From: Parelaphostrongylus tenuis
Lineage: Eukaryota; Nematoda; Chromadorea; Rhabditida; Metastrongylidae
Direction: 5' to 3'
NCBI GenBank assembly: GCA_019055375.1
Contig: JAHQIW010004688.1
Span: forward strand, 62,001 to 126,000
DNA length: 64,000 bases
Shown here in pieces: positions 6,061 through 46,239 of the stretch (position 1 is the first letter of the stretch; each line of letters opens with the position of its first letter). A model generated the notes under the pieces. It was not told the origin of the DNA. It saw only the letters and a list, made by a program, of their open reading frames with translations, and ran no database searches. A program made the translations under genes and the position numbers.

Positions 6061-6149
6061 AAGGAAACGTTAGCTACGATAAAGATTAGTTACAAACCAG
6101 TGTATCTTTGCCAGTAAATTAAGACATTTAACGAAAAAAGTACATATAT

Positions 6150-14390: not shown

Positions 14391-14399
14391 GATATGTAT

Positions 14400-15640: not shown

Positions 15641-15649
15641 TTACAACTG

Positions 15650-15860
15650 AATGCATATCTGGCACCTAAATGACTTGCGGTGGCTTACCGCCGCAATGAG
15701 TCGATGCTGCTTATTCTCCCAAACAAATGGGGGACCAGTCTGGAACCAACTACCTAGCCCGGAGGGGTATATGACTTAGCTAGCTGTGAGTGCGAGTTCA
15801 AACCAGTGACGTTGTGCGCGATGCAAAACACCTCTAACCACTGCACCACCTGCGCTCTTG
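15650..15860 (-). repeat. SINE-2, inverted copy
   Basis: Reverse-strand copy of the tRNA-derived SINE. Box-A-like GTGGTGCAGTGGTTAGAGG is near 15835-15855, and box-B-like CTGGTTTGAACTCGCACT near 15790-15810. It pairs with 14190-14390 across the LINE spacer. Confidence 0.75.
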
Positions 15861-16664: not shown

Positions 16665-16770
16665 GTTCCTTTTTTGAGAGCATTGCATTCGTGAAGTTGC
16701 CGAGATTCTCGCCATGCCGCCTTCCATTTCTTATGCAAGCAGTTTTTTTCCCGATCAAGAATGGAATAAG
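16665..16770 (+). pseudogene. Solitary M13 exon copy
   Basis: Begins after CATTTAG and ends before GTGACT. The W is lost (TTTTTTGAGAGCATTGCATT), and small indels alter the frame. It pairs with 13218-13320. Confidence 0.6.
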
Positions 16771-22400: not shown

Positions 22401-22800
22401 TTCACTACTGTAACCACTACATCAGCCGTCAACGGCCTGGCCCGGGTAGTCGGTATAGACATTGAACCCATTCACGATGACCGATATTAGATACTAAAGG
22501 TCAAATGAAAAACTTTTTTTTTAACTGCTTCTAGCAGTGGTATGATGTTTCAAATATACCCATTGATGTAGAGCGATCACTGCAAAAGTTTTGCACGTCT
22601 CTGCTAAAGTTTTGCACATCTCTCTACATCACTGGGTATATTTGAAACATCATACCACCGCTAAAATCGGATAAATAAAAAAGTGTTTCATTTGATCTCT
22701 AGTACCCAATATCTGTCAGCGTGACTGGGTTCAATGTCGATACCGACTACCCAGGCCTGGGCGTTGATGGCTGGCGGCTGACAGAATGATGCGCTCTAAC
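22400..22800. repeat. SINE-1 type foldback, tail-to-tail
   Basis: 22410-22590 reads in reverse as 22610-22800. It carries the SINE-1 body (CGTCAACGGCCTGGCCCGGG near 22429) and the flanking AGTGGTATGATGTTTCAAA. The tRNA heads themselves are missing, leaving a short duplicated TTTTGCACATC centre. Confidence 0.65.
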
Positions 22801-22819
22801 CTTGCCCTTGTAAGAGACC

Positions 22820-23221
22820 ACATGCGTGGCTCAAAACTACCAGGCATATTGAAATTTGAGCGCAGTCCTACGAAATTGCGCGGCCACCAGACCCACGAAT
22901 TAGATAAGCCGCTAAACAAGCACGCGGAATATATGGAACTCGATTTTATTTCCCGTCTACTCTGCAGTGAGACGGTATACCCAGAAAATAAGCACAATGT
23001 CGAAATTATGAAGAATTACGCTATCGAATGGCCACTAATAGTTTGGAAAGAGCTCTGTACTGCAAAAAAGGCATGAGTGAAACACAAAGAAGCGTTATAA
23101 AAAAACTTCTTCTGACCACGTAGGGCGCTAGCCAGAGATTCAAGCCTTCAATTGATCAACGAATGTACAATGAAAGGAATTTGTGCAGCAGAAGCGCGAT
23201 TCCTTCACTTGTTCCTTAATC
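22820..23221. repeat. Arm-family sequence
   Basis: Corresponds in reverse to 20500-20860 and directly to 44430-44790. It contains the CCACCAGACCCACGA block. It continues directly into the left arm of the large palindrome. Confidence 0.55.
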
Positions 23222-24219
23222 ACGAAAAGTATTGTGAATGCATGTCTAACCTAAATAATGACCTACACGGATCAGTACATTCCCGTTATCTATGCACCAC
23301 TTCGACCCCTTGTAAAAAACATACTTTTCGGTCTTTTTTGTTTTCGATAGCTTAAATCGAAAGAATTTGAATATCGTATTTCACCTTCAAAAAGGCCTTG
23401 TTATTGCGCTGAATGAGCAAGAATAAATTTTTTTACGTTAAAATATTTCTCACTCACCAGAGAATTTCTCTTAGAATTTCAGAAACGAAATGATGCATCA
23501 AATGTTAAAGATTCCAATAATGTTTTTGGTTTCTTGAACCTTTTTTAGTGCTTCATAAGAATGAAAAGTAAATTGCATTTAGCAATCGGTGCTTTTTTCC
23601 AGTTTTGGTAACCCGGTAAGTCCCCACAACCTCAAGACTGTGCTTATTTTCTGGATACACCGTCTCATTGCAGTCGAAAAGGAAACAAAATTGAGTTTCA
23701 TATATTCCGTGTGCTTGTTTAGCGGCTTATCTAGGTCGCGGGTCTGGTGGCCGCGCATTCGATGCTATCAATCGATCGGTCCAGCTTCGACAGGTCACAT
23801 GTGAAAGTCCAAATTTTTATTCGATTGAAAACTTTTTCTCCTCTTCGAAAGAAATCCCATATTAAGAGTATGATGATACACAATTTCCTCTGCATGTTCA
23901 TATGCTTTTCATAGTATCAGCCAACTAGTAGTAAGAGCAAGCTGCGAATGCCAAAGTTGATATGATTTTGGAATATTACAGCGTCAAAAAAGGGTCCGTA
24001 GCGCATTGCTCAAAGAATAATGCTTTCAAATAATAAGTAACACATATGAAAACTTTATGTCCAACGGGAGTTGGGGGAAGGGGGATGGGAGTCGTACAAG
24101 AAAAACTGCATCCACTTACCTCTACAATGCTCAATGGAATGGAGACGAATAAATAACGGACGAACAAATGAATGGATTTTTCCATTCAAAAGTGTATCTG
24201 CTTATTCATTGCCATTTAG

Positions 24220-24317
24220 GTTCCAGAATATGAGCGCTGCATAGATGAAGCAGCCGAGAATATCGCCATACCACTTTCTTGTGTTTGTGCAAGTAGTTTA
24301 TTCTCGATAAAAGCAGG
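24220..24317 (+). pseudogene. Solitary M13 exon copy
   Basis: Follows CATTTAG. Encodes ...ERCIDEAAENIAIPLS; the W is changed to Y, and there is no GT donor at the 3' end. Its mirror copy is near 30170-30267. Confidence 0.6.
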
Positions 24318-26646
24318 GATATGATGATTGTTCACATGTCTTGCCTTCAACAAAAACGAATTAATATTAGTGATCACAAGTATAGTGCCACTGCGTAGTG
24401 TTATAGCTCAAGTTATACAAATTTCTAAAAGTTTGGAGAAATTCGTAATGATTCGTGCTGTTGTAACGAGTGACCTGTTATCAAGCACCTCAATTTGCCA
24501 TTATCACATACTACCTGCGGAATCTTCCATTTATTCCTAAATACAAACACATTTGGTTATTTAATCAACTTGTCAGCCGACTGCGCATCATGTCGCCAAG
24601 CATATCGTCAAGCGGACCGTCGTCGGGCAGCCAAGAACATTATGGATGGTAAAGATGGTCAAATTTTTGTTTCATCACCATTAATGAACATGTACCTACA
24701 TCGCTGCAGATCTTTTCTAGTCAAACAGCTGAATTCTCAGTCATATGTCTCACACATTCTCCTTATGCTCAACGAAATAGCTTTTTTTGAACGCTATAAA
24801 TGAACAAGCATGTATCAAGCACTAAATATGACCATTTAACGTAACGCCGGTCTTGAAAAAGAAAAGCGATGAAATCGAAAAAGCTCTCCGAAGTGCCGGA
24901 AAGGTTGTGGAGAGGAAATGGTGCAACTCTGCGCCACCTTTTTGACACGAAACTCCGTCAGTAAAAATCACTACGAATTGTTGAATACCACTTCAGGGGA
25001 TGAGCTGGGATCGTCCCGAAACACTATAACAAGAACGGAGATTCAACAACTCGATGAGTTAAGGAAGCAAATCCCAAGATCGACTACCTATTAAACTCGA
25101 CATAGTTTGAATAAACGTTTCTTCTGTTTAGCCGTTCCGAGGTGTTATTGATATTATTTATTGAATATTAGCTAAGCATATAGCAATACAGTCAGTAATG
25201 TAGCCAGAATATACAATATTCGAGGTGGCTAACGTTTCGGCGGGTCACTTTCTTCAGAGTCTGGGAAGACCATATTGATCCATAGTCCACTAAGCCAAAA
25301 CCTCCGCAACCCTAGCAGAAAACGTTAAAAACGAATTTTGGATCGCATAGTAGAAGCTTTCTTGAAACACTCACTTTTTGATGTTTTAGGTGCATAAACT
25401 CTGTGGTTAAATGGTAATTATGGATAATTCCTATATTTAAGAGGTATCTTATCGTTACAAAGAATGGAATATTGCGAATAAACCTTTTGTGAGAGTTTTT
25501 ATACAAAGAGCGGTTACTTCAATTGAAAGCCTTCATTTTTCAGCTGTATTACCACATCCTTGTAGAAAAGTATGAGCTTTCAGCACTTATTATGCATCTA
25601 CATTGGCTGTATTGGATAAACGTAGTTTAACATCTTCCGCAGCTGAACACTTCTGTCAGAGGTTTATGTGGAGCTTGTTGCAGTATATAGCTGGAATAAG
25701 TATAGGAAAAACACGCGCTCGTCATCGTGGAAAATAATAGGTATATTAATCCCCATCTGCACCCATATTACCGAAAGCGTACTTTTGTTAATTTTCGGCA
25801 TTTGAGTTATCATTAGGCAGCTTGAATCTCGAAAATTTTAACGGTGTAATTTACTTGTTAAGTGGTTTATATATTCTGCTATAATAGTAGAAATATGATT
25901 TTATTTCACGCTCAAGTAATGCTGGGCACACTATTTCATTCACAGTATTAATGAACATTCGATAGCAAAATTCCCAACAATTTCAATGATATATTTGGTT
26001 TTCAAAAAGGATTTTTCGTTGCGCTGTTACAACTAAAAAAATAGTGAGTGCGCACTCGGTTCCGCGCCGATCGTAACATGCATAATTATTTTTATAAATT
26101 ATTAACTGTTATCTGATCTTTATTCACCATGATGACTTTTGTCTTGATCTTGTCTGGAACTAGAGATTATCAAAACTGAAGAATCTTAATGTTATCTCCT
26201 TTTCACAATGCAATACAATTGATTTAATATCAAATTCAGTATAATTGCGTAATAAATCAGCATTTTTTTCTATACAAGTTAGATACATCTAAGCCAAAAG
26301 CGTGTGAGCGGGTAGAGAATATCTCGTCCTATCAAAATTTTACAAGAGTTCTAAGAATTTTTGCAAAACGGAGAAAACAGCTTCGATTAAACAACAAAAA
26401 TTGCTCAATCCGCTCTGCGCGCATCGATTTCTGTAGCGGTTCCTTAGGGGCCAGTGATAAATGTCTATTGCTCTGCGCTATAAGTGCATCTTTTTATTTC
26501 AGCGCTTTTGATGTGATTACAGAAGATAAGATGTCGATAAACAAAGCGAAAAAAAAATGGAGCGAGAGATGAGGTGGCCTGTGTGCTGCAGAAGTTTGTA
26601 CAATAGTTTTTGCACTAATCAGACCTAAGAGCTATGATAAAGTCAC

Positions 26647-26753
26647 CTTATTTCCATTCTTGATCGGAAAAAAAACTGCTTGCATAAGCAGTGGAAGGCG
26701 TCATGGCGAGAATCTCGGCAACTTCACGAATGCAATGCTCCCAAAAAAGGAAC
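26647..26753 (-). pseudogene. Solitary M13 exon copy with good splice borders
   Basis: Encodes FWEHCIREVAEILAM and AYASSFF between a CATTTAG acceptor and a GTGACT donor. It mirrors 27733-27837 and is two bases longer. It lies near the centre of the large palindrome. Confidence 0.65.
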
Positions 26754-27112
26754 CTAAATGGTAGCGAATAAAAACAGTGGTAATGAATTAAAAAATATAT
26801 CTCTAGGTATTCAATTGCTCGTGCACTACGCATTCGACTCCATTAAGCAGTGTAGACGAAACTGGGCGTATGTTTGCTTTTATAGTGGCCTGCACGAATC
26901 CAGTGATGTATCACATCGATATTTTGTCCTTCCAGATAGCAGCAGTGTGAAGATTCCAAAGAGCTGTAGGATTTAATTTTCAGCGAACACAAGATTGAAC
27001 TCTGTGTGCATTGCCAGTAACAACTGCACTACAGCTTCGCTTCTTAAACGGGAGCAAGCGGAATGAAACGAAATCTATATCACGGCTTTTACACCTGCAT
27101 TGTAATAATTAG

Positions 27113-27372
27113 TCAAGCAGCCAAAAGGGTAATCCAGACGACCTATTTACATGAAAGGATTGTTGTTCATGGCTCTTCACAGATACATAAAGATTTCTCG
27201 TTACCGAATCCAAAACTTTTCAACATCCTGATTTTCATGAAATTCGTAGCGACTCTACAACTAGAAGGAGATGAGACACCATACGTCAAAGATTTCGTGC
27301 ACTGTCACAGCATGCCGAGAATGAGACCGTAATATGGCCAGTTCTGATGAGAATGAATGAACCGTACCTAAT
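27113..27372. other. Spacer of the large palindrome
   Basis: Unique within this palindrome. Related, more diverged sequence occurs at 13690-14000 and 46935-47200 (same direction), and at 16050-16320 (opposite direction). It contains an open frame but no recognised domain. Confidence 0.7.
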
Positions 27373-27732
27373 CACTACAGTGGAGGTGTAGAGGCCATGA
27401 CATAGATTTTGTTCCATTCCATTTGCTCGTGTTTGAAAAACAAAGGTGTAGCGCACTGGTTACTACAACGCACGCAGTACCATTAGTTGAATCCTGTGTT
27501 CGGTGAAAATCAAATCCCACAGCCCTTTGGAATCTTCACACTGCTGCTATCTGGAAAGACAAAATGTCGATGTGATACATCACTGGATTCGTGCAGGCCA
27601 CTATAAAAGCAAACATACGCCCAGTTTCGTCTACACTGCTTAATGGAGTCGAATGCGTAGTGCACGAGCAATTGAATATCTAGAGATTTATTTTTTAATT
27701 CAATACCACTGTTTTTATTCGCTACCATTTAG

Positions 27733-27837
27733 GTTCCTTTTTGGGAGCATTGCATTCGTGAAGTTGCCGAGATTCTCGCCATGACGCCTTCCACTGCTTA
27801 TGCAAGCAGTTTTTTTCCGATCAAGAATGGAAATAAG
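27733..27837 (+). pseudogene. Solitary M13 exon copy, open and splice-bounded
   Basis: 105 bp, the same length as 1154-1258, fully open. It encodes VPFWEHCIREVAEILAM, then AYASSFFPIKNGNK, with a TTTAG acceptor and a GTGACT donor. The next M13 exon (W-M/L-D-D) does not follow, so it cannot make a peptidase in place. Confidence 0.7.
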
Positions 27838-30169
27838 GTGACTTTATGATAGCTTTTAGGTCTGATTAGCTGCAAAAACTATTGTACAAACTTCTGCAGC
27901 ACACAGGCCACCTCATCTCTCGCTCCATTTTTTTTGCGCTTTGTTTATCGACATCTTATCTTCTGTAATCACATCAAAAGCGCTGAAATAAAAAGATGCA
28001 CTTATAGCGCAGAGCAATAGACATTTATCACTGACCCCTAAGGAACCGCTACAGAAATCGATGCGCGCAGAGCGGATTGAGCAATTTTTGTTGTTTAATC
28101 GAAGCTGTTTTCTCCGTTTTGCAAAAATTTTTAGAACTCTTGTAAAATTTTGATAGGACAAGATATTCTCTACCCGCTCACACGCTTTTGGCTTAGATAT
28201 ATCTAATTTGTATAGAAAAAAATGCTGATTTATTACGCAATTATATTGAATTTGATATCAAATCAATTGTATTGCATTGTGGAAAGGAGATAACATTAAG
28301 ATTCTTCAGTTTTGATAATCTCTAGTTCTAGACAAGATCAAGACAAAAGTCACTGTGGTGAATAAAAATTAGATAACAGTTAATAATTCTAAAAATAATT
28401 ATGCATGTTACGATCGGCGCGGAGCCGAGTGCGCACTCACTACTTTTTTAGTTGTAAGCACAATAAAAAATCCTTTTTGGAAACCAAACATATCATTCAA
28501 ATTGTTGAGAATTTTGCTAACGAATGTTCACTGAAATTGTGATTGAAATACTGGGTCCAGCAAAATTACTTGAGCGTGAAATAAAACCATGTTTTTACTC
28601 TTTTAGCAGAATACATAAACCATCTTAACTAGTAAATTACACCGTTAAATTTTCGAGGTTCAAGCTACTTAATGATAACTCAAATGCCGAAAAATAACAA
28701 AAGTACGCTTTCGGTAATATGGGTGCAGATGGGGATTAATATACCTATTATTTTCTACGATGACGAGCGCGTGTTTTTCCTATACTTATTCCAGCTATAT
28801 ACTGCAACAAGCTCCACATAAACCTCTGACAGAAGTGTTCAGCTGCGGAAGATGTTAAACTACGTTTATCCAATACAGCCAATGTAGATGCATGATAAGT
28901 GCTGAAAGCTTAGATTTTCTACAAGGATGTGGTGATACAGCTGAAAAATGAAGGCTTTCAATTGAAGTAACCGCTCTTTGTATAAAAACTCTCACAAAAG
29001 GTTTATTCGCGATATTCCATTCTTTGTAACGATAAGATACCTCTTAAATATAGGAATTATCCATAATTACCAATTAACCACAGAGTTTATGCACCTAAAA
29101 CATCAAAAAGTGAGTGTTTCAAGAAAGCTTCTACTATGCGATCCAAAATTCGTTTTTAACGTTTTCTGCTAGGGTTACGGAGGTTTTGGCTTAGTGGATT
29201 ATGGATCAATATGATCATCCCAGACTCTGAAGAAAGTGACCCGCCGAAACGTTAGCCACCTCGAATATTGTATATTCTGGCTACATTACTGACTGTATTG
29301 CTATATGCTTAGCTAATATTCAATAAATAATATCAATAACACCTCGGAACGGCTAAACAGAAGAAAACATTTATTCAAACTAGGTCGAGGTTGATAGGTA
29401 GTCGGTCTTGAGATTTGCTTCCTTAACTCATCGAGTTGTTGAATCTCCGTTCTTGCTATAGTGTTTCGGGACGATCCCAGCTCATCCCCTGAAGTGATGT
29501 TCAAAAATTCGTAGTAATCTTTACTGACGGAGTGTCGTGTCAAAAAGGTGGCGCAGAGTTGCATCATTTCCTCTCCACAACCTTTCCGGCACTTTGGAGA
29601 GCTTTTTCGATTTCGTCGCTTTTCTTTTCTAAGACCGGCGTTACGTTAAATTGTCATATTTAGTGCTCGATACAGGCTTGTTCTTTCATAGCGTTCAAGA
29701 AAAGCTATTTCGTTGAGCATAAGGAGAATGTGTGAGACATATGACTGAGAATTTAGCTGTTTGACTAGAAAAGATCTGCAGCGATGTAGGTACATGTTCA
29801 TTAATGGTGATGAAACAAAAATTTGACCATCTTTACCATCCATAATGTTCTTGGCTGCCCGACGACGGTCCGCTTGACGATATGCTTGGCGACATGATGC
29901 GCGCAGTTGGCTGACAAGTTGATTAAATAACCAAATGTGTTTGTATTTAGGAATAAATGGAAGATTCCGCGGGTAGTATGTGATAATGGCAAATTGAGGT
30001 GCTTGATAACAGGTCACTCGTTACAACAGCACGAATCATTACGAATTTCTCCAAACTTGTAGAAATTTGTATAACTTCAGCTATAACACTACGCAGTGGT
30101 ACTATACTTGTGATCACTAATATTAATTCGCTTTTGTTGAAGGCAAGACATGTGAACAATCACCATATC

Positions 30170-30267
30170 CCTGCTTTTGATCGAGAATAAACTACTTGCA
30201 CAAACACAAGAAAGTGGTATGGCGAGATTCTCGGCTGCTTCATCTATGCAGCGCTCATATTCTGGAA
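30170..30267 (-). pseudogene. Solitary M13 exon copy
   Basis: Reverse-strand copy (ERCIDEAAENLAIPLS). The acceptor AG has changed to GG. It mirrors 24220-24317. Confidence 0.6.
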
Positions 30268-31617
30268 CCCAAATGGCAATGAATAAGCAGATACACTTTT
30301 GAATGAAGAAATCCATTCATTTGTCCGTCCGTTATTTATTCGTCTCCATTCCATTGGGCATTGTAGAGGTGAGTGGATGCAGTTTTTCTTGTAGGACTCC
30401 CATCACCCTTCCCCAGCTCCCGTTGGACATAAAGTTTTGATATGTGCTGGTAATTATTTGAAAGCATAATTCTTTGAGCAATGCGCTGCGGAGCCTTTTA
30501 TGACGCTGTAATATTTCAAAATCGTATCAACTTTGGCATTCGCAGCTTGCTCTTACTACTAGTTGGCTGATACTATGAAAAGCATATGAACATGCAGAGG
30601 AATTTGTGTATCATCATACTCTTAATATGGGGCTTCTTTCGAAGAGGAGAAAAAGCTTTCAATCGAACAAAAATTTGGACTTTCACATGTGACCTGTCGA
30701 AGCTGGACCGATCGATTGATAGCATCGAATGCGCGGTCACCAGACCCGCGACCTAGATAAGCCGCTAAACAAGCACGCGGAATATTTGAAACTCGATTTT
30801 ATTTCCTTCTACATTGCAATGAGACGGTGTATCCAGAAAATAGGCACAGTCTTGAGGTTGTGGGGACTTACCGGCTTACCAAAACTGGAAAAAAGCACCG
30901 ATTGCGAAATGTAATTTACTTTTCATTCTTGTGAAGCACTAAGAAGTGCTCAAGAAACCAGAAACATTATTGGAATCCTTGACATTTCATGCATCATTTC
31001 GTTTCTAAAATTCTAAGAGAAAGGCTCTGGTGAGCGAGAAATCTTTTAACGAGTAAAAAAATTTATTCTTGCTCTTCCAGCGCAATAACAAGGCCTTTTT
31101 GAAGATGAAATTCGTTATTCAAATTCTTTCAGTTTAAGTTATCGAATGATTATCAAACATTAGAAACTATCATAAGTACGTTTTTCTTAATGGATCGAAG
31201 TGAGTAAAGGATAGTTCAAGCAACATATTTTTGAGAAGCCCAATATTCTTTGGCTACTACAGCGTGAAATTAGGTCCACCATAGAGATCTAATAGATTGT
31301 TGGAATTCTTAAGATTTGTTCTATCGATTGGTCACTGAAACTCCGAAGGACAAGCTTTGGGTGGGCGAGAATTCTTCCAATGAGATACAGAATTTTATTT
31401 TTGCCTTCAGCGAAATAAGAAGGTTTCTTCAAAGATGAGTAAGCCATTAAAATTGTTATGATATGTACTATCGAACGCACGTTTGAACAGGAAAAAAGAC
31501 CGAGAAGTACGTTTTTTTTACAAGGAGTCGAAGTGGCTTATAGCTAACGGGAATACTGATCCGTGTAGGTCATTATTTAGGTTAGACATGCATTCACAAT
31601 ACTTTTCATGTTTTTTC

Positions 31618-32085
31618 CTGCTCCGATTTTGCAATTCCCGATGTTTGCACTTGAAGCTCCTTTACCTGTTAATTATGGAGCCATTGGCACCGTTATCGGG
31701 CATGAAATCCCTCACGGCTACGGCAATAAATGTAGCCATCTGAAAAATTGACATGAACTGGATTCAGGTGAATATAGGAAAAATTCTTCAGGAGCACAGT
31801 ACGACGAAATTGGAAATGTGAGATCATGGTGGGATCGAAGTACGTGGGCGACGCCTATGAAAAAGATGTAGTGCTTCGTGATGCAGTACGGCAAGAAGGT
31901 TGAGCCAACAATCAAGAAAATTGTGAGATATGTGGTATTTTTGCCGTGAATAAAAGTTGAGGAAACAAAATAATTAACGTGTGAAGAATTTAAGGTCGAT
32001 GGACATCTGACAGTTCAAGAGAATATAGCTGATAATGGTGGACTGCGAGCAGTATTTGAAGTGAGGACCACTAAAAACTTCTTAT
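31618..32085 (+). pseudogene. M13 peptidase fragment B1 (HExxH exons)
   Basis: Runs parallel to copy A 3168-3640. It contains PAPILQFPMFALEAPLPVNY, then AIGTVIGHEIPHGYG (HExxH kept, the following D replaced by G), a second exon with GNVRSWWDRSTWAT, and an exon with VQENIADNGGLRA (zinc ligand E kept). In the second exon a TAG stop replaces the codon before the conserved CFVMQYG. It starts exactly where the right arm of the large palindrome stops and ends where inverted arm B begins. Pseudogene status is inferred from the stop and the missing exons. Confidence 0.78.
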
Positions 32086-33169
32086 ATCTTGGAAGGACTG
32101 CTTTGCTGCATCGCAGAAGGTAAAATAATTTGAATTCGCATATGCGAGCAAGGGTTCCTTGGCCAGCTTTTCTACGCGTTCGTATGCCCGAAAAATCGAT
32201 GATCATTGCGCCATCGAACGTGGTTGCCTCACAAGCTGGAGCGCTTGTTGAATTCTTCATTTCAAATGTTCTCTTGTGAACAAGTTCAAATTTCAATATG
32301 CCTGATAATTATTCTTGAGCCATACATGTGGTCTCTTCCGGGAGTTTATACATTGCAATACACATGTTTCGGCCTTGGCAGCCTCGTCAGTTGCACAGTA
32401 CTTCGTCCTAGCCAATTCCTTTCCTTTCGAGCATCTCGGTCCCCTTATATGGAGGAGACGCAGACGTACTATTTATACGCACAATTAGGTAGGAATATCA
32501 CTGAATGAGCAGTGTTATACGCTTAATTGCCCTTGACTGGTATCAATAAATTATACCTATTGTTTCGTGTGTTTCTTTAGCTCACGCTCAAGTTCCAAGA
32601 TTCCTAAAAGTTATTCTTGATCTATGTCTCATTTTACTGGCAAGGATACACTGGTTTGTAATCAGTCTTTATCGTGGCCTACGTTTCCCTAGGTCTGCTA
32701 TCGTCAATTAGCATTAATCCAAGTCAAGTGTCTACAACAGCGGTTTGACATTGCGATGCTGTCTCAGTGGTACATTACTTGAATTCCCGAGCTTATCAAG
32801 CCTTTCGATCCCTCCAAGGTCAGAAAATTGATGCCAGAGTGCTGGGTACATTTGATAACATCCAAGTAATAATGAGATACGCTTAAGTCCTTCAAGCCGG
32901 CAGCTGAAAAAGGTGGCTTCAAGTTGGTCGCTCGCGTGGCAGTCGCCGCGATTGACCACGCCAGTGGAGCACGTAGTGTTTACACGTTGTGGTTTCGTAT
33001 TGATTACAGACCTTCCTCATCGATAAAAGAAACATTTTCATTAGGAAGGGATGAAATTTGAAGAAAAATCTCTGAAAGGCTCTTCATGGTTGGAGTATGC
33101 CAAAGCGGTTATAAAGAAAAGGGAGTTCTTTTCCTCAAACCGCTTTTAGCGGTGGTATTGTTATAAATA

Positions 33170-33520
33170 TGTCCAGTGATGTAGAGTGATGTGCAAAACT
33201 TTTGCGTCAAGCGGGACTCAAACCACATCTCACTCTATCCGGGGGCGCGTGCTCTAACACGTTGCATTACCGACGCTCATATCCTACACAATATCTGTCA
33301 GCGTGACTGGACTTCAATGTCGAAACCGACTACCCGGCCAGGCCGTTGACGGCTGGCGGCTGACAGATAGGATTCGTCGTGGCGTAGAAAGAGTGGTGTG
33401 CAAAATGAGCGCCAGTAGTGCAGCGGGTTAGAGTACGCGCTCCCGGATAGAGTGAGATGTGCGTTCGAGTTCCACCTGACGTAAAAGTTCTGCACGTCAC
33501 TCTACATCACTGAGTTATAG
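33170..33520. repeat. SINE-1 foldback, inverted-duplicate copy
   Basis: Two tRNA-like heads in opposite orientation. The right-hand one has AGTAGTGCAGCGGGTTAGAG (box A) and GTTCGAGTTCC (box B). The centre carries CTGTCAGCGTGACTGG. It corresponds to 5212-5575. Confidence 0.8.
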
Positions 33521-34789
33521 AACATATCTCATGAATATTATTTGAGACAACATGTCATGTGGTCTATTATAGGGCAGACTTATAGAGCATGATGCATGTA
33601 TTTTGACCTTGACAGTTTCATCAGTCGGCGGCGGTACCCTTCGTCTTTTGCCATTCCTCTCTGGGCGCACAGTCCCTATACTAGGAGTAGGCGCCGAAGA
33701 ACATTTTACACCGTCCTCTAAGTGAAATTATCACTAAATGGACAGCGTTGTACTCTGGACTGTTATTATCTGGTATTGTTAATATGCAATACCTTTTGTT
33801 TCGAGTCTTTTCTTATGATCACGCTCACATTACAGCATATCTCATAATTGTCATTTGAGTCAACGTGCTTTCATGAAAGCACTCGAAACGTAAGATATAA
33901 GGCAATTACATGTTGTCAAACCTTACACTGCGCATTGAAATGCGATTATATTTTACGAATAAATCGGAGGTTCATCGCATTGTCGGCATTTACGTTAGGA
34001 ATTGAAAAATCTATATAGCTCCAGAAGAAATTTTGTACTGAAGTCTGCTGGATAATAACTTTATAGCTCCACTTGTACTCAGTAAAATTTTTTAGCTAAC
34101 TTTCATTTGAAATAAATCTAGTCAATTTTTTGTTCACTCAAAGCTGTTCCATCTGTGAGCTACCATTCGACACTTCTCACGTGGATTCACAGGGCTCCCT
34201 ACCAGACATTGGAAACTTCCGCAAACGGAGGAAAGTTTTGAAGTGGCACGTTAGTCCTAAAAAGAATGATTTTGGTATTTGTAGACTGATGTCTCAATGT
34301 TAACCATTTTGGGATGGATTGTATGCATTTGTACAGACAAATTTCTAAGGAAAATCTCGTTAAGGAAACATGTTCCTCAGACCTCTAGCATGCAATCTCA
34401 AAGATTAGTCTGGGCAATTTCATTGACATTTTTGGCCTAGGAAAAGCTATTCTTATTGTGCTGTAATAATAGAAATAAAACTGTGTTTCGCACTTAGTTT
34501 GCTTCTCTGCCCGACTGAGGTTTATGGGTGGGTAATTATTCGATAGCTCAATACTCGACAAATTTCTTGTCGAAACCGTTGCATATTGTTCTCCAGCAAA
34601 AATTTGAAAACGAGAAGTCCAATGGATTGAGGTGAAGTGGGCTGCCAATAGTTGAACTTGAGAATTGGAATTCAGCCGCACTCCACTAGTTATTGTGTCA
34701 GAGATGACCATCAGTTGATGAAATGGCAGGTAGAAGGTTGTAAATATCCTGGATTAGTCGATGAGCTGAAAATACTCACCTAAACCTCC

Positions 34790-35260
34790 CGAGTGCATGT
34801 GGGCTACTTTCCATAATTTGGCTTATTACTGGAGTCCTCACGTTTTGACAGAATATCTAAGCAATGATTTTGCATAATTCATTGAAGTGTGAGAATTCAG
34901 TCATTGAAGTTTGGCAGTTTTCAATGAGTAGCTGAAGACGACAATCGGGAAATGACTCACGTTACCAAACGCAAAGAAGAATAATTGCTCCTGTGAAAAC
35001 GACGACATTTGCGGTAAGGCCGTGCATTCCTCACGAGAACATCTCATTTTGTATGCCTAGATGAAAAAATGGAATCGTTAACTAATACAAGTTCCTAGTG
35101 GTCCTCACTTCATATGCTGCTCGCAGTCCACAATTATCAGCTATGTTCTCTTGAATTGTCGAATGTACATCAACCAAAAATTTTTCGTCACGATAATTAT
35201 TTTATTTCGTCAGTTTTTATTATCGCTAAAAACACCACATATCTGACATTTTTCTTGATT
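34790..35260 (-). pseudogene. M13 peptidase fragment B2 (C-terminal half)
   Basis: Reverse-strand exons: about 35223-35257 (end of the EPTIKKN exon), about 35095-35162 (QENIADNCGLRAAYE), about 34974-35067 (AYKMRCSREECTALP, then QEQLFFFAFGN) and about 34790-34853 (FCQNVRTPVISQ, then SSPHALGRFR). All four are open, with GT/AG borders as in copy A. The HExxH exons are absent because the arm jumps from the equivalent of 2868 to the equivalent of 3456. It can no longer encode an active enzyme. Confidence 0.75.
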
Positions 35261-36334
35261 GTTGGCTCTGGAAGTGGCAGTCTTTCTGACTCTTTCTCGC
35301 GAAAAAATTAATGAAGTGAGTCATTAATATATTTGAATGTTTCTCAGCACACGAAAAAACCAGAATCATCTCGTCACTTATTTTGTATATCATTTTTCCA
35401 GATAAATCGATCAAATGGAGGGCTTTGATCTTGCGTTCATGGCTCATCAAGCCATCCATCCTTCCGGAGTTAGTAAACCGGTGCCAGACTGGTGTTAGAC
35501 TTCCCTGGGAGTATAAGCAGCGCTGACTCGACAAAGCGGGAGGCCACCGCAAGTCATTGTAAAGGCCAAAGATGAATTGAATCATTTCAAAACGAAGTTG
35601 GAAATTGAAGATGAATGCATATTGCATTCCACAGGAAATGGTAACCGCCGAGAGCTTTGTCCTTTATCCTTCTATCTTGAACGCCGAGAAGCAGAGCATA
35701 TTATAGCTGTGCACTGGTCGTAGAATACTGTTTTAGCTCTTTTGGTCATCCAGATCATTCCATCACAAAAAAACCTAAGTTTACATAGTTGTGATTCAAT
35801 GGTGAACCTCAAAGACATTGCAATGAGCTGAATGAGACAAAGCCGAGATGAACAATGCTGTCAAGCAATTCTTCAATATGTTAGAGAATCATGTTGAAGA
35901 TGGGGTCACTTATAGAACCCGATACACGTGTTTCGATCTTACGATCTCGACAATCGGTCAATTACCCAATCTCGTCTTTTGCTAATCTGTGTGGGTGCTC
36001 CTTCCCCTCACTAAGAGTTAGCTACGTCGAACCATTAACACTCTATGAAGAGTTAGATTATCACCGCACACAGAGTGCCGAACAGGCCACACTCTATGAA
36101 CCGCTGTATCATATCGGCGCTTCTGTCTCTTCTTTCTAGAGAAATCTTTCAAAATAAACCGATCTGATTTACCGAACCCAGTGGAATGAAAGGCTTGATG
36201 AGCCTCAGGCACGGGGCGGAAACATGACCATCGATTGATCAGCCTCAATCGTAGAGCACCTTCATGGCTGCGCAACATGCACTTATAATGAACTAATAAG
36301 GACAGAATTCTTTTTATTCAAACGCTTTTAGTGA

Positions 36335-36945
36335 TGATATGGTGTTACAAATATACCCACTGACTTAGAATGCTGTGCAAAAGTTTCGCACGCTCTACTG
36401 ATGCCCGTTTTGTCATCAGTCTCTCTTTCTACGCTAGAAAGCATCTATTTGTCAGCAACCAACCGTCAACGGCCCGGCCCACGTAGTCGCTTCTCGGCAC
36501 TGAATCCAGTCATGCTGACAGATACTGGTTATTATATGATCAAATACAATTCCTTTATTGAGATTTAAAGTATTTTTACTGCTTTTTTTCGCAATGTTGT
36601 GATATATCGTACATACCTAGGAGAACTGAGTGGTGAGCAAAAATACGACCTCATACAGGAGTCGAACCCGCGTTTCATCCACACCGGAAACGCATGGTAC
36701 CTATTCTTGATCACCACTCAATGCTCTTAGGTATATATGAAAATTCCCTTTCTATATAACCGCTTCTAGCGGTGGTATGATGCTACACATATACCAACTG
36801 GTATATCGTGATGAGCGAAACTTTCACGTCATGCGGGACTCGCACTCATATCTCACCCTATCCGGGAGCACGTGCTTTAACCCCTTGAACTATTGACTCC
36901 CGTTTTGCTCATCACTTTATATCATTGGCTAATTTGTTCGCAAAA
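36335..36945. repeat. Cluster of three SINE-1-like or tRNA-like fragments
   Basis: Three adjacent units near 36335-36560, 36600-36760 and 36770-36945, each with a reverse box-B-like sequence (for example GAGTCGAACCCGCG at 36659) and a GATGTAGAGTGATG-type edge. They share the GCTTTTAGTGATGATATGGTG-type border seen beside other SINE-1 copies. None folds as a full tRNA gene when read by eye. Confidence 0.6.
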
Positions 36946-37209
36946 CATGTATAACCCAAAACAGAAATTTTCGAAAAAATTGAGGGATTTATGACAAAAA
37001 TTTATACCGCTTTCGGTCTGTGATGTTCCCACTGCGAATTCCAAAGAAGAGAGTACATCGTACGGGGTCGCTGAGAATGATGTTCCTCCAACGTTTACGA
37101 CCAATATTGTCTATGAAAGCTAGTACACCTACAGACCTGTTCTATAGCAAAGACGATAAAAATAGCGAAGACACTTTACTGATCCATTTTCACAGCGTTT
37201 TTTGTTTAC

Positions 37210-37435
37210 CATGCGGATCCCACTAGTTCTAGCATTCAATTCGTTTTTCATCTTCTTCTTGAACGTCGTAGAATACTGGTTGAGTGAGTCTCCTTGCAAT
37301 CTCGGGGATAGCTCGGCTGTGGCGTTCCATAGGGCGTTGTTGATGACTGCCCGATAGGGCTGGGCGTGGAGCACAGCTCCACGTGCGCCGCGACGACCTT
37401 AACAACCACTCGGCTACGGCGCTCCCAATAACAAC
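37210..37435 (-). repeat. SINE-4, with tRNA-Leu/Ser-like box A
   Basis: On the reverse strand it begins near GGAGCGCCGTAGCCGAGTGG, which resembles the start of a type II (Leu or Ser) tRNA gene with its A box. A hairpin follows (GTGGAGCTGTGCTCCAC near 37365-37383), then a body ending at CATGCGGATCC. It lies just downstream of the stop codon of the minus-strand gene. A second copy at about 38505-38745 has the same order and strand. Confidence 0.6.
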
Positions 37436-37500
37436 GATTCGGCGGAGTTCATTATAAAAAAAAATTCGAAGAGAACGAAAAACGTCTACATACGTTCTTT

Positions 37501-39039
37501 TTAAGACGGGAGTTCTCTAAACGAGAGATGCCGTATCCAAAATAGCACGGGATCGAATCGACGCGGTAACTTTTCCAATGTTGGGTCGTACTTTTTGCCG
37601 TGAAGAATTGCATCTAGCACCTGAAAAAGAGGAGCCTAAGTTCTCGGGTTCCGAAGAACGTCATACCAAGCATTTTTGGTTGTGAATCTCAATATTGAAA
37701 CTTACTAACCACATCCTCGGAGATGTCAGATGACCGACATGGTGTATGGCAGTCTCTGGCAATCCCTCTCTCACAACTGCTTTGCTCAAAACAGCTGCTT
37801 GATCGGCACCGTCACTCAACGGAACGCTACCATCGAACAGAAAACAGTGGGTTTTAGAGTAGAGCGAATGCTCCTTAAAGCACACAAAGGATGATAAATG
37901 TGCAAATGAAGAAAACTTCTGAGAGAAAAGAAACAAATCAGTACGTTGTACCAACACAACGTTCAGTAGTATGTAAGCAAAAGACCGACTCTCCCAAAAC
38001 TAGGCATGGCAAGTGTAAACCATCTCCCAAACTGTCCTTTATAGGAGATCTCCCTAGGTTGGTATATCGAACCTAAGAAAAGCGGAATCGCTGGAACATC
38101 ACGAAGATGATGAGACGTTATACAGACCTCAGGGAACGTTCATAACAAAGGACAGTTCGTGAGGTAATAAAGATCGGATGGTGGTGATTATAGCTGCTGT
38201 CAAGCTTGGAACGAAAAAATATCACCTCGATTGACGGGACTCGGAAAGCCGGATGAGTTTCGCCGAGATCTGGGAGAGATGTTGCAGTCTCAGTGATTGG
38301 CGTGAAGAACGATTGTTCGCTTGGATCATATACAGTGATTGCGGCAGGCTTTAAGAAAAAGGTATACCTGAATCACAAGACATCAACTCTCAAGAATCTC
38401 CTCACTAAAGCTCAAGGCATTTATTATAGAAAACCGATAACACAACTTTTTAGCCCTTTACCTCAGCACTTAACTAATCCGCCTTCCCAGCGTTCTTTCT
38501 CATTATGCGGATCCCAACTTGTAGCATTCAATTCCTTTTTTTTCGTCTTCTTCTTCTTGAACGTCGTAGAATTATGGTTGAGCACGTCTCCTTGCAATAT
38601 AGAGGATAGCCTAGCAATAACGTTCCATATGGCGTCTTTGTTGACTGCCGGAGAGGAGAGAAGCAGGAGGCAGGATGTGGGAGGTAGAGCTCAGCTCCAC
38701 GCGCGCCACGACCAGCATCACAACCACTCTGCTGCGGCGCTCCGTTTACACAACAACGGTAAAATTAACTCTCTGTTAAAGATAGAAAAAACGAATGTCT
38801 CCCACTAAACCTCAACATAAAAAGTAAAAACCATCTCACAAACTGCTCTACTTTTGTCCTTTACTGAAAGAAAAGAATCGTTTTACTCTCGGATTCTCTT
38901 AAGAGAGCTCACTTTAACAGCAGGTGGTACATGGAATGCTGGCATCTTCCGATTATTCCGTGCTTTCAGAATCGCTTCGAAAATTCGCGTATCAATTTTT
39001 TCCCATTGTTTTTCGGTTCAATACTTTCTGAAGACCATC
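37501..39039 (-). CDS. Multi-exon gene, 3' part, outside the M13 repeats; function uncertain
   Basis: Exons on the reverse strand: 39039-38913 (WEKIDTRIFEAILKARNN, MPAFHVPPAVK, donor GTGAGC), 38348-38226 (ITVYDPSEQSFFTPITETA, then GETHPAFRVPSIE), about 38127-38010 (VCITSHHLRDVPAIPLF; 3' border not settled), 37918-37706 (THCFLFDGSVPLSDGADQAA, donor GTAAGT) and 37620-37501 (DAILHGKKYDPTLEKLPRRF, ending FRELPS and TAA). Phases agree for the 37918-37706 and 37620-37501 pair and for 38348-38226. The first exon reads through a TGA near its 5' end in the chosen frame, so it has a frameshift or a mis-set acceptor. Start not found. The ending recalls mitochondrial ribosomal proteins of the mL37/mS30 type, but that is a weak impression. 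A SINE-4 copy sits in its 5' intron. Confidence 0.6.
38505..38745 (-). repeat. SINE-4 copy in an intron
   Basis: Parallel to 37210-37435. The reverse strand begins GGAGCGCCGCAGCAGAGTGG and ends near GGATCCGCATAAT. It lies between the exons at 38348 and 38913 of the minus-strand gene, in the same orientation as that gene. Confidence 0.65.
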
Positions 39040-39189
39040 CTGAAACAGAATTCGTTCACATGATCGTTGAGAACCCGACTGAATGAATCGCTGAATGGAA
39101 CGACACACAATAAAATAGAACTAAACTCTGAAGCAACAAGGGTCGGCAGATAAAAATGACTTTCACAAAACAGAGCCAATAAGCCCAAT

Positions 39190-39330
39190 GATGATGAGTG
39201 ATGTGCAAAAGTTTGACGCCAGGCAGGACTCGAACTCGCGTCTCACCATTTGGGTGGTCGCGATGTTTTGACTAGTTGCACTACCGACAACCGTCTTGCC
39301 ACCACTCTTTCCACACTCTACGTCATAGTC
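39190..39330. repeat. SINE-1-like tRNA fragment
   Basis: Begins GATGATGAGTGATGTGCAAAA. It contains a reverse box-B-like GGACTCGAACTCGCG and a reverse box-A-like TTGCACTACCGACA. Single head, no inverted partner. Confidence 0.6.
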
Positions 39331-39394
39331 ACTAATCACCAGATTATTTCCATTAGATTATCACTGCTATCGAGGGTTGCCAAGTGACTAGAGG

Positions 39395-39640
39395 TCAGAA
39401 TATAAGTAGACGGGGAGACGGTTCCACCGCCTCTTGCCGTTCATCGACGAACGCGTCACGGATCGTCCTAGCTCGAATACCTCCTGCGCTGCAAGATTTG
39501 CCTGACCAGCATCGGCTCATATTCCTGAGACGAAATCCCCTTAAACAGCGATGGAAGCAGTACACGAGATGTTCGAAGAACTCTATGAAAGTTGAATAGA
39601 GGAGATGAATTAAGGCTAGCAGTGCACAGTGGAAATGCAA
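39395..39640 (-). other. Open frame, possible 5' exon of the minus-strand gene
   Basis: The reverse strand is open for 81 codons and includes RTIRDAFVDERQEAVEPSPR, which looks coding in character. No clear donor follows it, and it was not joined to the exon at 39039. It could be an upstream exon of the gene at 37501-39039 or a chance frame. Confidence 0.2.
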
Positions 39641-39689
39641 CGACGGGTCGCGTAATTATAAAAACTATAAAAAATTTTTTCCAATAATG

Positions 39690-39800
39690 TGGAGCGCTGG
39701 ACAAAAACATTCGCGTCATCCGGGATTCGAACCCTGATCTCACTTATTCCGGGAGCGTATGCTAACCGTTGCACCACCGACGCCTTTTTTTCTACATTGA
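39690..39800 (-). repeat. SINE-1-like tRNA head
   Basis: The reverse strand carries GGTGGTGCAACGGTTAGCAT (box A) and AGGGTTCGAATCCCGGATGA (box B). Single copy without a partner. Confidence 0.65.
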
Positions 39801-39849
39801 ATAATTCCTGAGGGATGCTCCATGTTTCCGTCTTCAATTTTTAACTTCA

Positions 39850-40080
39850 TTTGAGGTGACTGAACGCATATCTGGCCTTTATAATAACTCGCTGTGGCCT
39901 CCTGCTGTGCCGAGTCAGTGCCGCTTATCCTCCCAGACAAGTCTGAGATCAGTTTGGTACCAATTTACTGACCCCGGAGAGACGGATGGCTTGGTGAGCC
40001 ATGAGCGCGAGATCGCACCATTGACCTCGTGCGTGACGCAGAGCACCTCTAATCACTGCGCCACATGCGCTCTTGCGTAA
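39850..40080 (-). repeat. SINE-2 copy
   Basis: The tail (CTGGCCTTTATAATAAC, CTGTGGCCTCC) is at the left and the tRNA-like head (reverse of CATTGACC... ACTGCGCCACATGCGC) at the right, so the element reads on the minus strand. Confidence 0.65.
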
Positions 40081-40227
40081 GAATAAGAAAAAGACAAAAT
40101 TGTTGGTACCATTTTCGCCATATCTCATTTATGGAGGGATCAATAAGCGACTTATTCACAAATTCCATATTTCGATTATATATGATATTGAACCAAGCGA
40201 CCATTCTAGCAAAGGAAAGATTCGGTA

Positions 40228-40295
40228 ACAAAACAAAAATATAAAAATAACAAATAAAAATAAAAAATAAATAGAAAATAAAAAATAAAAGATAC
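40228..40295. repeat. A-rich simple repeat
   Basis: An AAATAAAAAT-type run of about 65 bp with no other features. Confidence 0.85.
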
Positions 40296-40299
40296 CTCC

Positions 40300-41220
40300 C
40301 TTAATTCCCTTTCCCCTCCGTAGTACCTATAACCAAGTTTTCTTCGACAATGTCTGTAAAAAAAATCTGAATTTGTCGCAACGCTTGAAAAGTTTTCAGT
40401 AATCAACGGAAGTCGCGTTTCTTTTAGTTGACACTGTGCCAGCGATTTTTTATAGCGTCGGAAGGGAGCGTCATTTGAGATACACACGATTACCGTTATT
40501 TATTTAGGAATTTCTCTTATATTTCTGAGAGTGTTCGAAATTCTTCATATGAGGATTGTAGAACAGACTTTGTTCTATCGTTTTCTAAATAGACCTATTT
40601 TCACATTACCAAGCAAACCCACTATGCAGCTCAAGCTCCGAGCTAACTACCTCGAGTGTAAACCCTGATCTTGCTTTTGTTTTAATCCGCTCTCTGTAAG
40701 CATTTTGTGCAACCAATTTCTGCGTCGTCCTTAGAATTTGGACTTCGAACGACCCTCCTACAATTCACCGAAAAGCCACTCATAAATCGCTGCCGAGCAA
40801 ATAGAGTGCGATATATAATATATCTTCGCTGCTGCATCACAATAAGAATAGAATCTCATAATCTGAGCAGATCCTTAACATTGCCAAAATTTGAGTTTTT
40901 GAGTGATTCTTTGATACTCAGGAAAAAAACTTTTCCCCGCGAGAAAGTGTGCAATTAAATGGATATCGCTCCAAAAGGGTTGGCTATTTTAAGGTTAACA
41001 ATAAAGGTTTTGAAATCTACTATAACGCGCATTGTTCTATGGCAACAATTAGGAAATGAAAATTACAATGGGTCAGAGTAAAAAGTGCAATACTGCCTGT
41101 TGAACCCAATAAAGGTTCACAGACTTAGGTGGCATTCCCAGAGCTTATCATAACAGAGAAGACCACCATTGGATAGATTGGTAGTTTAAATGTGGTGAGA
41201 CTCTTAGTGACTAGGTAACC
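40300..41220. other. No recognised gene
   Basis: Open frames here are under 95 codons and lack domains or convincing splice borders. No repeat of the families above was recognised. Confidence 0.4.
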
Positions 41221-41224
41221 TGAT

Positions 41225-43935
41225 AACACTCACTTAAACCTCCTAGGTGGATGGTTGTCATGTTCCATAAAAGCTTTATTGCTGAGGGTTTCACGTTTTC
41301 GCAGAATGCAATGACTCAATAAAGTCCGGAAATTTTCTTTGAGTCATTAAGATGACACGGTGAGATTTATGACAATTCCAGTAAGGCCACAACGTCTTCA
41401 CGAGAGCATCTTGTTTGTAGGCCAGAACGAAAAGGGAATGGACTTGCCTGCGCAGGGAAAATTCCTAGTGGTGCCTACTTACTATGCTAATCGTAGTCCA
41501 CCATTATCAGCTATATTCTCTCCAACTGATAGACGACTATCAGCCTACAACTTTTCTAGCACAAAAGTTATTTCAATTCAGCACTTTTTATTCACGTCGA
41601 AAATGTCACAAGTCTCACATTTTTCTGTATTGTTGGCTCAATCTGCCAGCCATACTGCGTTATGAGGCACTGCTGCTTCTCGAGATAAGCTGCCCACGTA
41701 CGTTGATCCCACCGCGTTCTCATATTTCCAGCTTCGTCGAACTGTGTTCTTGGAAAAGTGTATCTATATGCTTTTTTAGCTATTCAGCTCATGCCAAATT
41801 AAAATGGCCACCCTGATCGTCATATCCGTGGGTGAATTCATGCCCAATGACGGAGCCGATGGTTACAAAATTAACATAGAAGAGAGCTCGGGTACGAGTA
41901 ACGGGAATTCCAAAATGGCAGCCGAAGGATCTTAGGAGACATAAGATAATAGCTCGTTCATATTAAGTACTTCCCAAAAATATATCTCGAACGATTTCTG
42001 CTGTTTATGTGAAGAAATAATTCTACCATCTTCATAGCAGATTGAATGATATGCTGTAAGTTTTTAGAATATTACTCTTCCCAACTATAAATCAATGAAA
42101 AGTTTACTGACCTTTTTCATTCTCACTAGGGTCATCATAAAAGTTGGCAAAATTTATAGGCAAAATCCATTCGTCCTTGAAGAGAGGGTTGTTCAGTCGA
42201 TTTGAATTCTTTCTGAAATGGTGGACGTCCGTTATAGCTACCTCCCCAACTGATAAAGTATAGTGAAGGAAACCATTAATCTGTTAGCACAGCTTTCCAG
42301 CACACAAATTCTCATGTATCATATTTTGCGCACTGAAAAAGAGCGGATGCCATAGTTATGCTCCGGTCGCAGCTAATTTCTACCAATTTTTGTGATCATT
42401 CAAAGCATTCCAGTAGAACTAGTGATGTGGAGTGATGTGCAAAACTATCGTGTCAGGCGGGACTAAAACCCGGACCTCACTCTATCCGGGAGAGTGTGCT
42501 CTTTCCGTTACACTGTTGACCCCAATTTGCACAATACTCTTTTTACGCTACAGCGCATCTTTCTGTCAGCCGCCGCTGTCAACGGCCTGGCCCGGGTAGT
42601 CGGTATGGACACTGAACCCAGTCACGCTGACCGATTGGGTACTAGAGATCGAATGAAATACTTTTTTTTATTTAACCGCTTCTAGCAGAGGTATGTTGTT
42701 TCAAATATACCTATTGATGTAGAGTGATCACTGCAAAAGTTTTGCACATCAGCCAGACCGTTGACCGCTGGCGGCCGGCGGAAAGATGCGGTCTAGCGTA
42801 AAAAGGGTGTTGTGAAAAAGGGCGTCAGTAGTGTAACGGAAAGAGCACACCTTCCGGATAGAGTGAGATGCGGGTTTCGGTCCCGCTGACGCAAAAGTTC
42901 TGCACATCACTCTACACGACTGGATATATATGAAACATCAAACCATCGTTAGAAGCGGTTAAATAAAGAAGAAAATCCAACAGAGGAAAATTTGTGTGTG
43001 CGCAGTTATGATCTGACGGAGCGTCTCGCAGAAATGAAGAAGATCTGCCGAACAGTCTTTCAACAAATTTATCACTTGCTGTACTCATTACCTTACTGCC
43101 AATTTCATCAACTGCAAAACATCGCCGAAATAGCGGTCAACTTTTTTCTGCACTCTTCTGTAAGGAATAAGCATAGCAGTTTCATCTTTCACTACTTTGG
43201 AGAATCTGTATTTCAGTTAGAGTTCACTCCATTTATATCTTAACGTATATCGGACTCTACAAGTTGCCTTATAAGAGATCACATGCGTGGCTCAAAACTG
43301 CCAGGCATAATGAAATTGAGCGTAGTCCTACAAAAACACTGGTTTTATTTCGTTTACCCAATTTTTCCACCCATGTTCTTTAGCTTCTGAAGCGCTTTCT
43401 CTTTACCGCATCGTCCATCCAATCTGTATCCAAAATAATCCGCTCCATTGGTCGTTGCTAATCTGCTACCACTTCTTCGGCCTCGAAATCGTCAACGTTA
43501 ACAACTAGCGAAGAAATTCATTCTTATCTCTAGAATCCTTTTCCTTCTCTCCGTTACTTCTTTTTTGTTGCTTTCTAAATTTTTTAAGTTTGGTTCATTT
43601 TGAATCTTATGATCACAATACAATTTAATTGCGTATTTAGGTTCATCTTTGCTGATTCATTACAGAGTTTTGGTAGCAAATACGAAGGTAAACATATCGC
43701 CAAACGAAAAGCGAAGAACTGGAAAAGTGTGTGGAAGAGTTAAAGAGAAAAAGAGTATATCTATGTAATTCTAAAGTAGTGCACTACCTTTGAAGCAACC
43801 GATGCTGCGATATGTGTTCAGGCACCTAATTTCCGCCTTTGACTGAAAAGAAACTACTTGCGTAGGCAGAAGAAAGTGGTATGGCGAGATTCTCGGCTGC
43901 TTCATTAATGCAGCGCTCCCATTGTGGGAAATAAA
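41225..43935 (-). pseudogene. M13 peptidase copy C, nearly full exon order, with lesions
   Basis: Exons on the reverse strand: about 43930-43830 (QWERCINEAAENLAIPLS, YASSFF), 43481-43358 (MERIILDTDWMDD, KLKNMGGKIG), 43205-43097 (DRYFGDVLQLMKLA), about 42265-42120 (DVHHFRKNSNRLNNP, EWILPINFANFYDDP), about 41925-41810 (ILEFPLLVPELSS, then IGSVIGHEFTHGYDDQGGHF with HExxH), 41755-41640 (TRWDQRTWAAY, then CLITQYGW), about 41535-41480 (RLSVGENIADNGGL), a decayed piece near 41440-41380 and about 41300-41225 (HDNHPPRRFK). The second exon is 124 bp against 125 in copy A (a 1-base loss) and has a TAG early in it. The HExxH exon has a frame break just before the zinc motif. It is more diverged from copy A than B1 or B2 are. 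Assembly error is the alternative to true pseudogenisation. Confidence 0.78.
42415..42960. repeat. SINE-1 foldback inside an M13 intron
   Basis: The left head is at about 42425-42520 (reverse) and the right head at about 42820-42900, with GTAGTGTAACGGAAAGAGCA (box A) and GGGTTTCGGTCCCGC (box B). The body and two GATGTAGAGTGATC edges lie between. It is located between the copy C exons at 42265 and 43097. Confidence 0.7.
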
Positions 43936-46235: not shown

Positions 46236-46239
46236 ATGA

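Follow-up and report, generated by a model that had tools for sequence, protein, structure and literature searches.

The 64,000-nucleotide stretch of the Parelaphostrongylus tenuis (deer brainworm) genome analysed here (hereafter the window; contig JAHQIW010004688.1, referred to as C3096, positions 62001-126000) contains an 8.4 kb palindrome with no recognised genes inside. Its two inverted arms, the left arm L and the right arm R, flank a short non-palindromic spacer (Table 1), and self-BLAST aligns L 23343-27112 with R 31146-27368 at 94.35% identity over 3788 columns. A match of 3.8 kb at 94% is no chance event, and the window contains zero N. These results agree with a preliminary description made from the sequence alone, which had proposed arms of 3.9 and 4.2 kb around a spacer of about 260 bp, here 255 bp, together with related copies at 12-21 kb and 43-49 kb, which we locate at 12.6-20.8 kb and 44.4-47.5 kb with 12-16% difference.

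L and R differ at 201 of 3884 aligned sites (5.2%), with a transition-to-transversion ratio of 2.3. L differs from the related copies C1, C2 and C3 of the window at 203 of 1311, 625 of 4393 and 295 of 2381 sites, and from a2 and b2, two copies on contig C3097, at 459 of 4130 and 443 of 3198 sites. The arms are more alike than they are to any of these five copies (11-16%), a whole-length value that fails in some tracts, while another three (a1 and b1 on C3097, c on C3099) are mostly more distant and differ from L by 15-20% in the two arm tracts that compare all three. In line with the preliminary description, identity is higher within the pair than between pairs, yet this comparison cannot separate recency from conversion. 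Polarisation of the 201 L-R differences, in an alignment allowing for the 2.1 kb missing from C3 (from which the C3 figures also come), assigns 93 changes to L and 90 to R, with 17 unclear and one without an outgroup base. Arms read twice from a single molecule would be near identical; a foldback or hairpin sequencing artefact is therefore rejected, and the worry that the palindrome is a hairpin or chimera product appears unlikely given the number of differences, their equal share between the arms and the transition-to-transversion ratio.

After one inversion followed by equal ageing, L-R divergence should be a constant fraction of outgroup divergence. Across 25 fixed 150-column windows of the alignment, the ratio of L-R divergence to the mean distance to C2 ranges from 0.10 to 1.31. 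With C2 as the outgroup, L-R differences and shared L=R changes are heterogeneous along these windows (χ2 = 95.8, 24 degrees of freedom (df), p = 1.6e-10), and a second alignment with C2, a2 and b2 as outgroups gives χ2/df values of 3.85, 4.08 and 5.22 (p = 5.9e-10, 3e-11 and 7.7e-13). As a control, six comparisons pairing C2, a2 and b2, none of which are neighbours, give χ2/df values of 0.90-1.71 (p = 0.024-0.58). Additionally, a two-rate model with tracts at 2.2% and 10.7% improves on a single rate by 71.6 in twice the log-likelihood difference, against at most 3.5 in 12 permutations. The homogenised tracts thus exceed local rate variation, and one recent inversion ageing at a single rate does not fit the data. 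Mutation-rate variation explains part of the pattern, but as its whole cause it is ruled out by the outgroup-corrected tests.

Specifically, tracts near 2% alternate along the arms with tracts at 8-19% (Table 1), the six low tracts spanning 43, 71, 246, 648, 696 and 802 columns. The middle patch is no fast region: its L-C2 divergence of 12.4% is like that of the low tracts (7-14%), whereas its L-R divergence is five times higher, and this patch rules out a model of end effects only. With C2 and C3 as outgroups, the ratio of shared-derived to private sites falls from 41:21 for three low tracts to 15:38 for two high tracts (Fisher p = 7e-5) and to 0:24 for the innermost tract (p = 3e-9), the tracts having been picked on the same data as were tested; two other outgroup pairs give 2:24 and 1:26 for the innermost tract. 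Six of the eight tracts were examined by the approximately unbiased (AU) test, leaving out the spacer and the outer tract, which a deletion in the left arm distorts in the tract comparison of all copies, where its L-R value is 13.8% instead of 10.0%; the second copies of the arms, L' and R' of block B (see below), were not in the trees. L and R are sisters in four of the six tract trees (low1, low2, low3 and 24784-24997), with support from 100/97 to 100/100.

Two dispersed repeats lie within the arms. One, of about 320 bp, occupies 25066-25386 and its mirror position in the right arm, and recurs at 85-87% on at least 29 other contigs among the best 40 of 3617 candidates. The other, at 26000-26450, overlaps the edge of the middle patch and is 71-78% alike on many contigs among the best 40 of 1063 candidates.

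Table 1. Features of the palindrome and its surroundings (window positions unless a contig is named)
Feature	Position	Strand	Observation
Left arm L	23218..27112	+	3895 bp including outer end; self-BLAST and alignment
Right arm R, inverted	27368..31613	-	4246 bp including outer end; self-BLAST and alignment
Spacer	27113..27367	.	255 bp; self-BLAST and copy comparison
Inversion junction	27362..27370	.	3 nt (CCT) common to both units at the putative switch
344 bp loss site, left arm	23343..23344		Stretch present in R, C2, C3 and a2
Outer tract, less homogenised	23274..23714	+	L-R 44/439 = 10.0%; L-C2 81/438
Homogenised tract	24136..24783	+	L-R 13/648 = 2.0%
Homogenised tract	25113..25809	+	L-R 13/696 = 1.9%
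Middle patch, little homogenised	25810..26145	+	L-R 34/332 = 10.2%; L-C2 41/331
Homogenised tract	26146..26949	+	L-R 17/802 = 2.1%
Innermost tract	26950..27112	+	L-R 31/162 = 19.1%; equals distance among other family copies
Related copy C1	12618..14407	+	Older 83-84% palindrome with C2
Related copy C2	15643..20838	-	Self-BLAST, alignment
Related copy C3	44427..47537	+	Without about 2.1 kb between 46589 and 46591
Block A, contains whole palindrome	22802..41270	+	Inverted again as block B, C3096:12111-30583
M13 (neprilysin-like) peptidase gene fragment	31614..32063	+	Directly outside right arm; Pfam match

Taken together, these findings suggest that the palindrome is probably an older inverted duplication that has been homogenised piecemeal by arm-to-arm gene conversion. 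The preliminary description had left the choice between a recent inversion and gene conversion open; the unevenness along the arms favours piecemeal homogenisation of an older duplication and speaks against a simple recent inversion. The inversion would predate the roughly 2% divergence now seen over most of the arm length, and gene conversion between the arms would then repeatedly have overwritten tracts, the larger ones of about 250-800 bp, mainly in the arm bodies, while the tips beside the spacer, the middle patch and partly the outer ends would have been spared. Tracts at 8-10% in which L and R are still sisters are best read as setting a minimum age for the inversion, and the 2% tracts as later rewriting. 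The innermost 163 bp, at 19%, allow two readings: an inverted pair as old as the family whose tip escaped rewriting altogether, or a tip acquired from another copy. That the arms resemble each other stems from their arrangement, and no arm function is proposed. The structure itself is real and belongs to a known kind; what is new is the evidence that its arms have a greater age than their likeness implies.

The centre of the palindrome bears on how such a duplication could have arisen. C1, C2 and C3 are continuous across both sides of the centre: the left unit tracks them to about 27364, the right arm tracks them, inverted, from 27368, and the three bases CCT belong to both. Because the copies read through at both sides, the spacer is a part of the unit that is missing from the right arm, that is, a one-sided continuation of the left unit without a counterpart there; it has homology to the remaining copies. 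We propose that a unit without recognised genes was copied beside itself in inverted orientation, and that a switch via about 3 nt of common sequence would have left 255 bp unduplicated as the spacer. The junction sequence fits template switching or fold-back repair, and three bases prove no pathway. At the outer end, 344 columns are absent from L beside position 23343. Since R (344 columns), C2 (341), a2 (340) and C3 all carry this stretch, it was lost from the left arm alone, which bears out, and polarises, the earlier observation that the left arm lacks about 335 bp of internal short repeats. The lost stretch fits a single unit of an internal repeat with a period of about 330 bp, as an offset self-BLAST match (23218-23534 with 31613-31283 at 73%) suggests.

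It is rather unlikely that the palindrome is recent (about 2%) and that ectopic conversion later brought its divergent patches into one arm from other family copies. Exchange with dispersed copies does seem to occur, to judge from the sequence comparisons, because L and a2 differ by 5.9% in the spacer (16-23% for seven other copies) and by 15.3% in the innermost tract beside it. Two more observations favour outside pasting: the tree of the middle patch joins R to b2 (support 81/81), and the innermost tract holds zero L=R changes opposed to C2 and C3. However, pasting from outside would erase sisterhood, and in 24784-24997 L and R are sisters at 100/97 though 8-10% apart. The outer tract likewise has 12 derived sites common to L and R, against 1 and 1 for the other groupings, despite its divergence of about 10%, and the innermost tract is an arm end, where arm-to-arm conversion should fail.

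On the other hand, several observations weigh against an older duplication rewritten by conversion between its arms. Six comparisons of L or R with a dispersed copy are uneven too (χ2/df 1.57-2.41, p = 0.0002-0.032), so exchange with dispersed copies contributes to the pattern. Raw variance-to-mean ratios in 100-column windows are similar for L-R (3.26), C2-C3 (3.14) and C1-C3 (3.20, five windows); the claim of unevenness is accordingly based on the outgroup-corrected tests and not on raw variance. L-C2 divergence is 12-32% in high tracts of at least 40 columns, reaching 32% in 23961-24135, versus 7-14% in low tracts, so the high class partly reflects a fast region, chiefly 23961-24135. The best trees of the innermost tract and the middle patch do not place L and R as sisters, and the AU test does not reject sisterhood in either (p = 0.143 and 0.156). 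Moreover, there is no consistent guanine-plus-cytosine (GC) bias, weak-to-strong versus strong-to-weak changes being 38/30 among shared changes, 13/27 on L and 23/18 on R.

Further points on the same side come from the inverted second copy of the region, block B, which lies 54 kb from block A (18.5 kb each) and is 98.8% identical to it, with 161 substitutions that are distributed very unevenly over 18,442 aligned sites. Block B has the identical junction and the identical 344 bp loss, and shows no clean conversion tract: 185 of 197 arm-difference sites are unchanged, eight have R'=L, three have L'=R and one is otherwise. An indel at 25570 and the sites 25729, 25791 and 25818 keep the old difference amid the changed sites of block B, and a single conversion tract at 25473-25827 was dropped as a candidate. 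In the comparison of A with B, two sites (25415 and 26606) show the same change in both arms of one block. Arm differences found only in block B are rich in transversions (14, with 8 transitions) and look partly like consensus noise. Block B could have arisen by recent duplication or represent a partly collapsed repeat; for this reason, and because of its excess of transversions, it carries little weight here as an independent witness.

This uncertainty touches on whether the uneven divergence could be an artefact of assembly or consensus, in which noisy long reads mixed between the arms blurred their middle, or the junction is false. The published assembly (491 Mb) was, according to the available part of its report (PMC10940269), built with Flye from PacBio reads of average Phred 8, mean length 8 kb and 23x coverage from two pooled female worms, with Illumina sequencing described there for RNA only; the mean read length is thus about that of the palindrome. 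The two blocks differ by 2 substitutions in 29302-36301 versus 118 in 36302-41270 (2.4%), and a partly collapsed repeat would give the same. Mixing only lowers divergence, however, so that arms about 10% apart throughout would have to be misassigned over most of their length, whereas 8 kb reads mostly reach the spacer or the flank of a 4 kb arm. At the junction, 3 nt in common would not suffice for an overlap join and N is absent, and the changes are equal on both arms. We therefore regard such an artefact as unlikely.

Several inverted segmental duplications, the palindrome among them, lie in this neighbourhood of M13 peptidase genes. M13 peptidase exons or fragments in both orientations occur at 1640-4573, 31614-32063, 34220-35174 and 41485-41905; the fragment beside the right arm has as its best relative a P. 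tenuis protein (58% identity over 95% of the query), three pieces of which match C3097 at 100% (18636-18701, 69169-69261 and 69318-69452). Long stretches of C3096 and C3097 are collinear, mostly at 82-91%, with M13 peptidase exons repeated along both contigs. Other inverted pairs of the window are 12618-17377 (83-84%) and 43809-46255 (81%), and similar pairs occur on C3097. A separate palindrome at 10928-12618 has 723 bp arms (84%) and a 245 bp spacer, with a similar one at C3097:25168-26852 (255 bp spacer), and near the contig start C3096:19-1516 and 4672-6170 form an inverted pair at 99.7% over 1.5 kb with a 3.2 kb spacer.

Among the stretches compared, the whole palindrome is found only in blocks A and B. 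In searches of the genome (481.5 Mb in 5105 contigs, which may lack short contigs of the published 491 Mb), matches above 500 bp to 26000-27112 fall on C3096, C3097 and C3099 among the best 40 of 1063 candidates, and those to 24136-25809 on C3096 and C3097 among the best 40 of 3617; within this scope the whole palindrome is not dispersed at unrelated sites, and a foldback transposon in which the whole palindrome is mobile was rejected. That the arms derive from an older C1/C2-type palindrome by deletion across its centre, with no new inverted duplication, is highly improbable: such palindromes do recur (C3097:27248-31823 and 84211-88848) and innermost L-R divergence equals that between other copies, but C1-type arms start near 26045 in L coordinates (26045 for window 12618 and C3097:84211, 26089 for C3097:27248) whereas L and R both extend beyond this to 23218, and trees of the innermost tract, weakly supported throughout, join neither L to C1-type nor R to C2-type arms.

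More tentatively, it is possible that the M13 neighbourhood is a recurrent site of inverted duplication, with palindromes of several ages and different centres; conversion would have overwritten the youngest of these except at its tip, whose older state would serve as a clock for the inversion, and the finished palindrome would then have been copied, inverted, as the 18.5 kb block.

A Pfam scan of 22801-32200 in its three plus-strand frames, with X at stops, matched nothing within the palindrome (the arms mirror each other, and the minus strand was not run); its single hit was the M13 fragment beyond the right arm. Ten open reading frames (ORFs) of the window, two of them in the arms and two in C2, were scanned for Pfam domains, and only a piggyBac-like transposase at 58626-59363 on the minus strand matched (DDE_Tnp_1_7, E = 2.8e-34). 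The ORF at 26228-26572 in L has one stop in R and two in C2. The ORF at 20072-20542 in C2 has three stops in R, four in C3 and none in the part common with L; compared with R, its non-synonymous divergence is 0.125 and its synonymous divergence 0.255 (Fisher p = 0.006). Of 397 windows taken over all frames, 45 have ratios as low, and the ORF is not accepted as coding; it may be an old exon. No homologue at E ≤ 0.001 was found for this ORF (10 candidates) or for the piggyBac-like one (16 candidates).

Self-complementary elements of about 330-360 bp lie at 5210-5567, 22423-22773, 33174-33512 and 50480-50810, with another at 42426-42916. ARAGORN predicts tRNA-Ser(GGA) in three of the first four, the exception being 22423-22773, and the Rfam cut-off is reached once. 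The element at 22423, whose end lies 29 bp from the edge of block A, recurs across the genome, with at least 142 matches among the best 40 of 5031 candidates. Such elements may account for part of the 9,623 tRNA genes that the available text of the genome report (PMC10940269) gives for P. tenuis.

Comparable arrangements are known. Caenorhabditis inverted repeats with paralogous gene pairs (F44E5.4/F44E5.5 and the hsp16 locus; Zhao et al. 2007, PMC1803023) share with the P. tenuis palindrome, as far as the available part of that paper describes them, inverted arms, a short spacer, arms more alike than age predicts and gene conversion as the proposed cause. They differ in comprising genes and intergenic DNA and in an inverted structure common across species, whereas the P. 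tenuis arms contain no recognised gene and come from one species. Mammalian sex-chromosome palindromes are alike in architecture and in proposed arm-to-arm conversion, but their arms, in the accessible portion of the source (PMC8981503), exceed 99% identity with a median of 37 kb in a primate X set; those of P. tenuis measure 3.9-4.2 kb, are patchy at 94-95%, show no consistent GC bias and are not assigned to a chromosome. The low tracts, at 43-802 columns, overlap the range of conversion tracts between C. elegans paralogues (12-2,958 bp, mean 117); surviving tracts there cluster at 50-200 nt, as stated in the available part of that study (PMC3966223), and a long P. tenuis tract may represent several events. 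No such palindrome in a strongylid nematode was found in one open-access library by title or the start of the abstract, which is weak evidence of absence.

These results carry consequences for how the region is used. In this assembly, caution is advisable with the gene models and copy numbers of the M13 peptidase cluster. If an older duplication has indeed been rewritten piecemeal by conversion between its arms, mean arm identity would make the inversion look several times younger than it is, and its age may be better read from the unconverted tip next to the spacer. The palindrome would then also be an example, from a parasitic nematode, whose DNA has no recognised genes, so that gene function need not be what keeps the arms alike.

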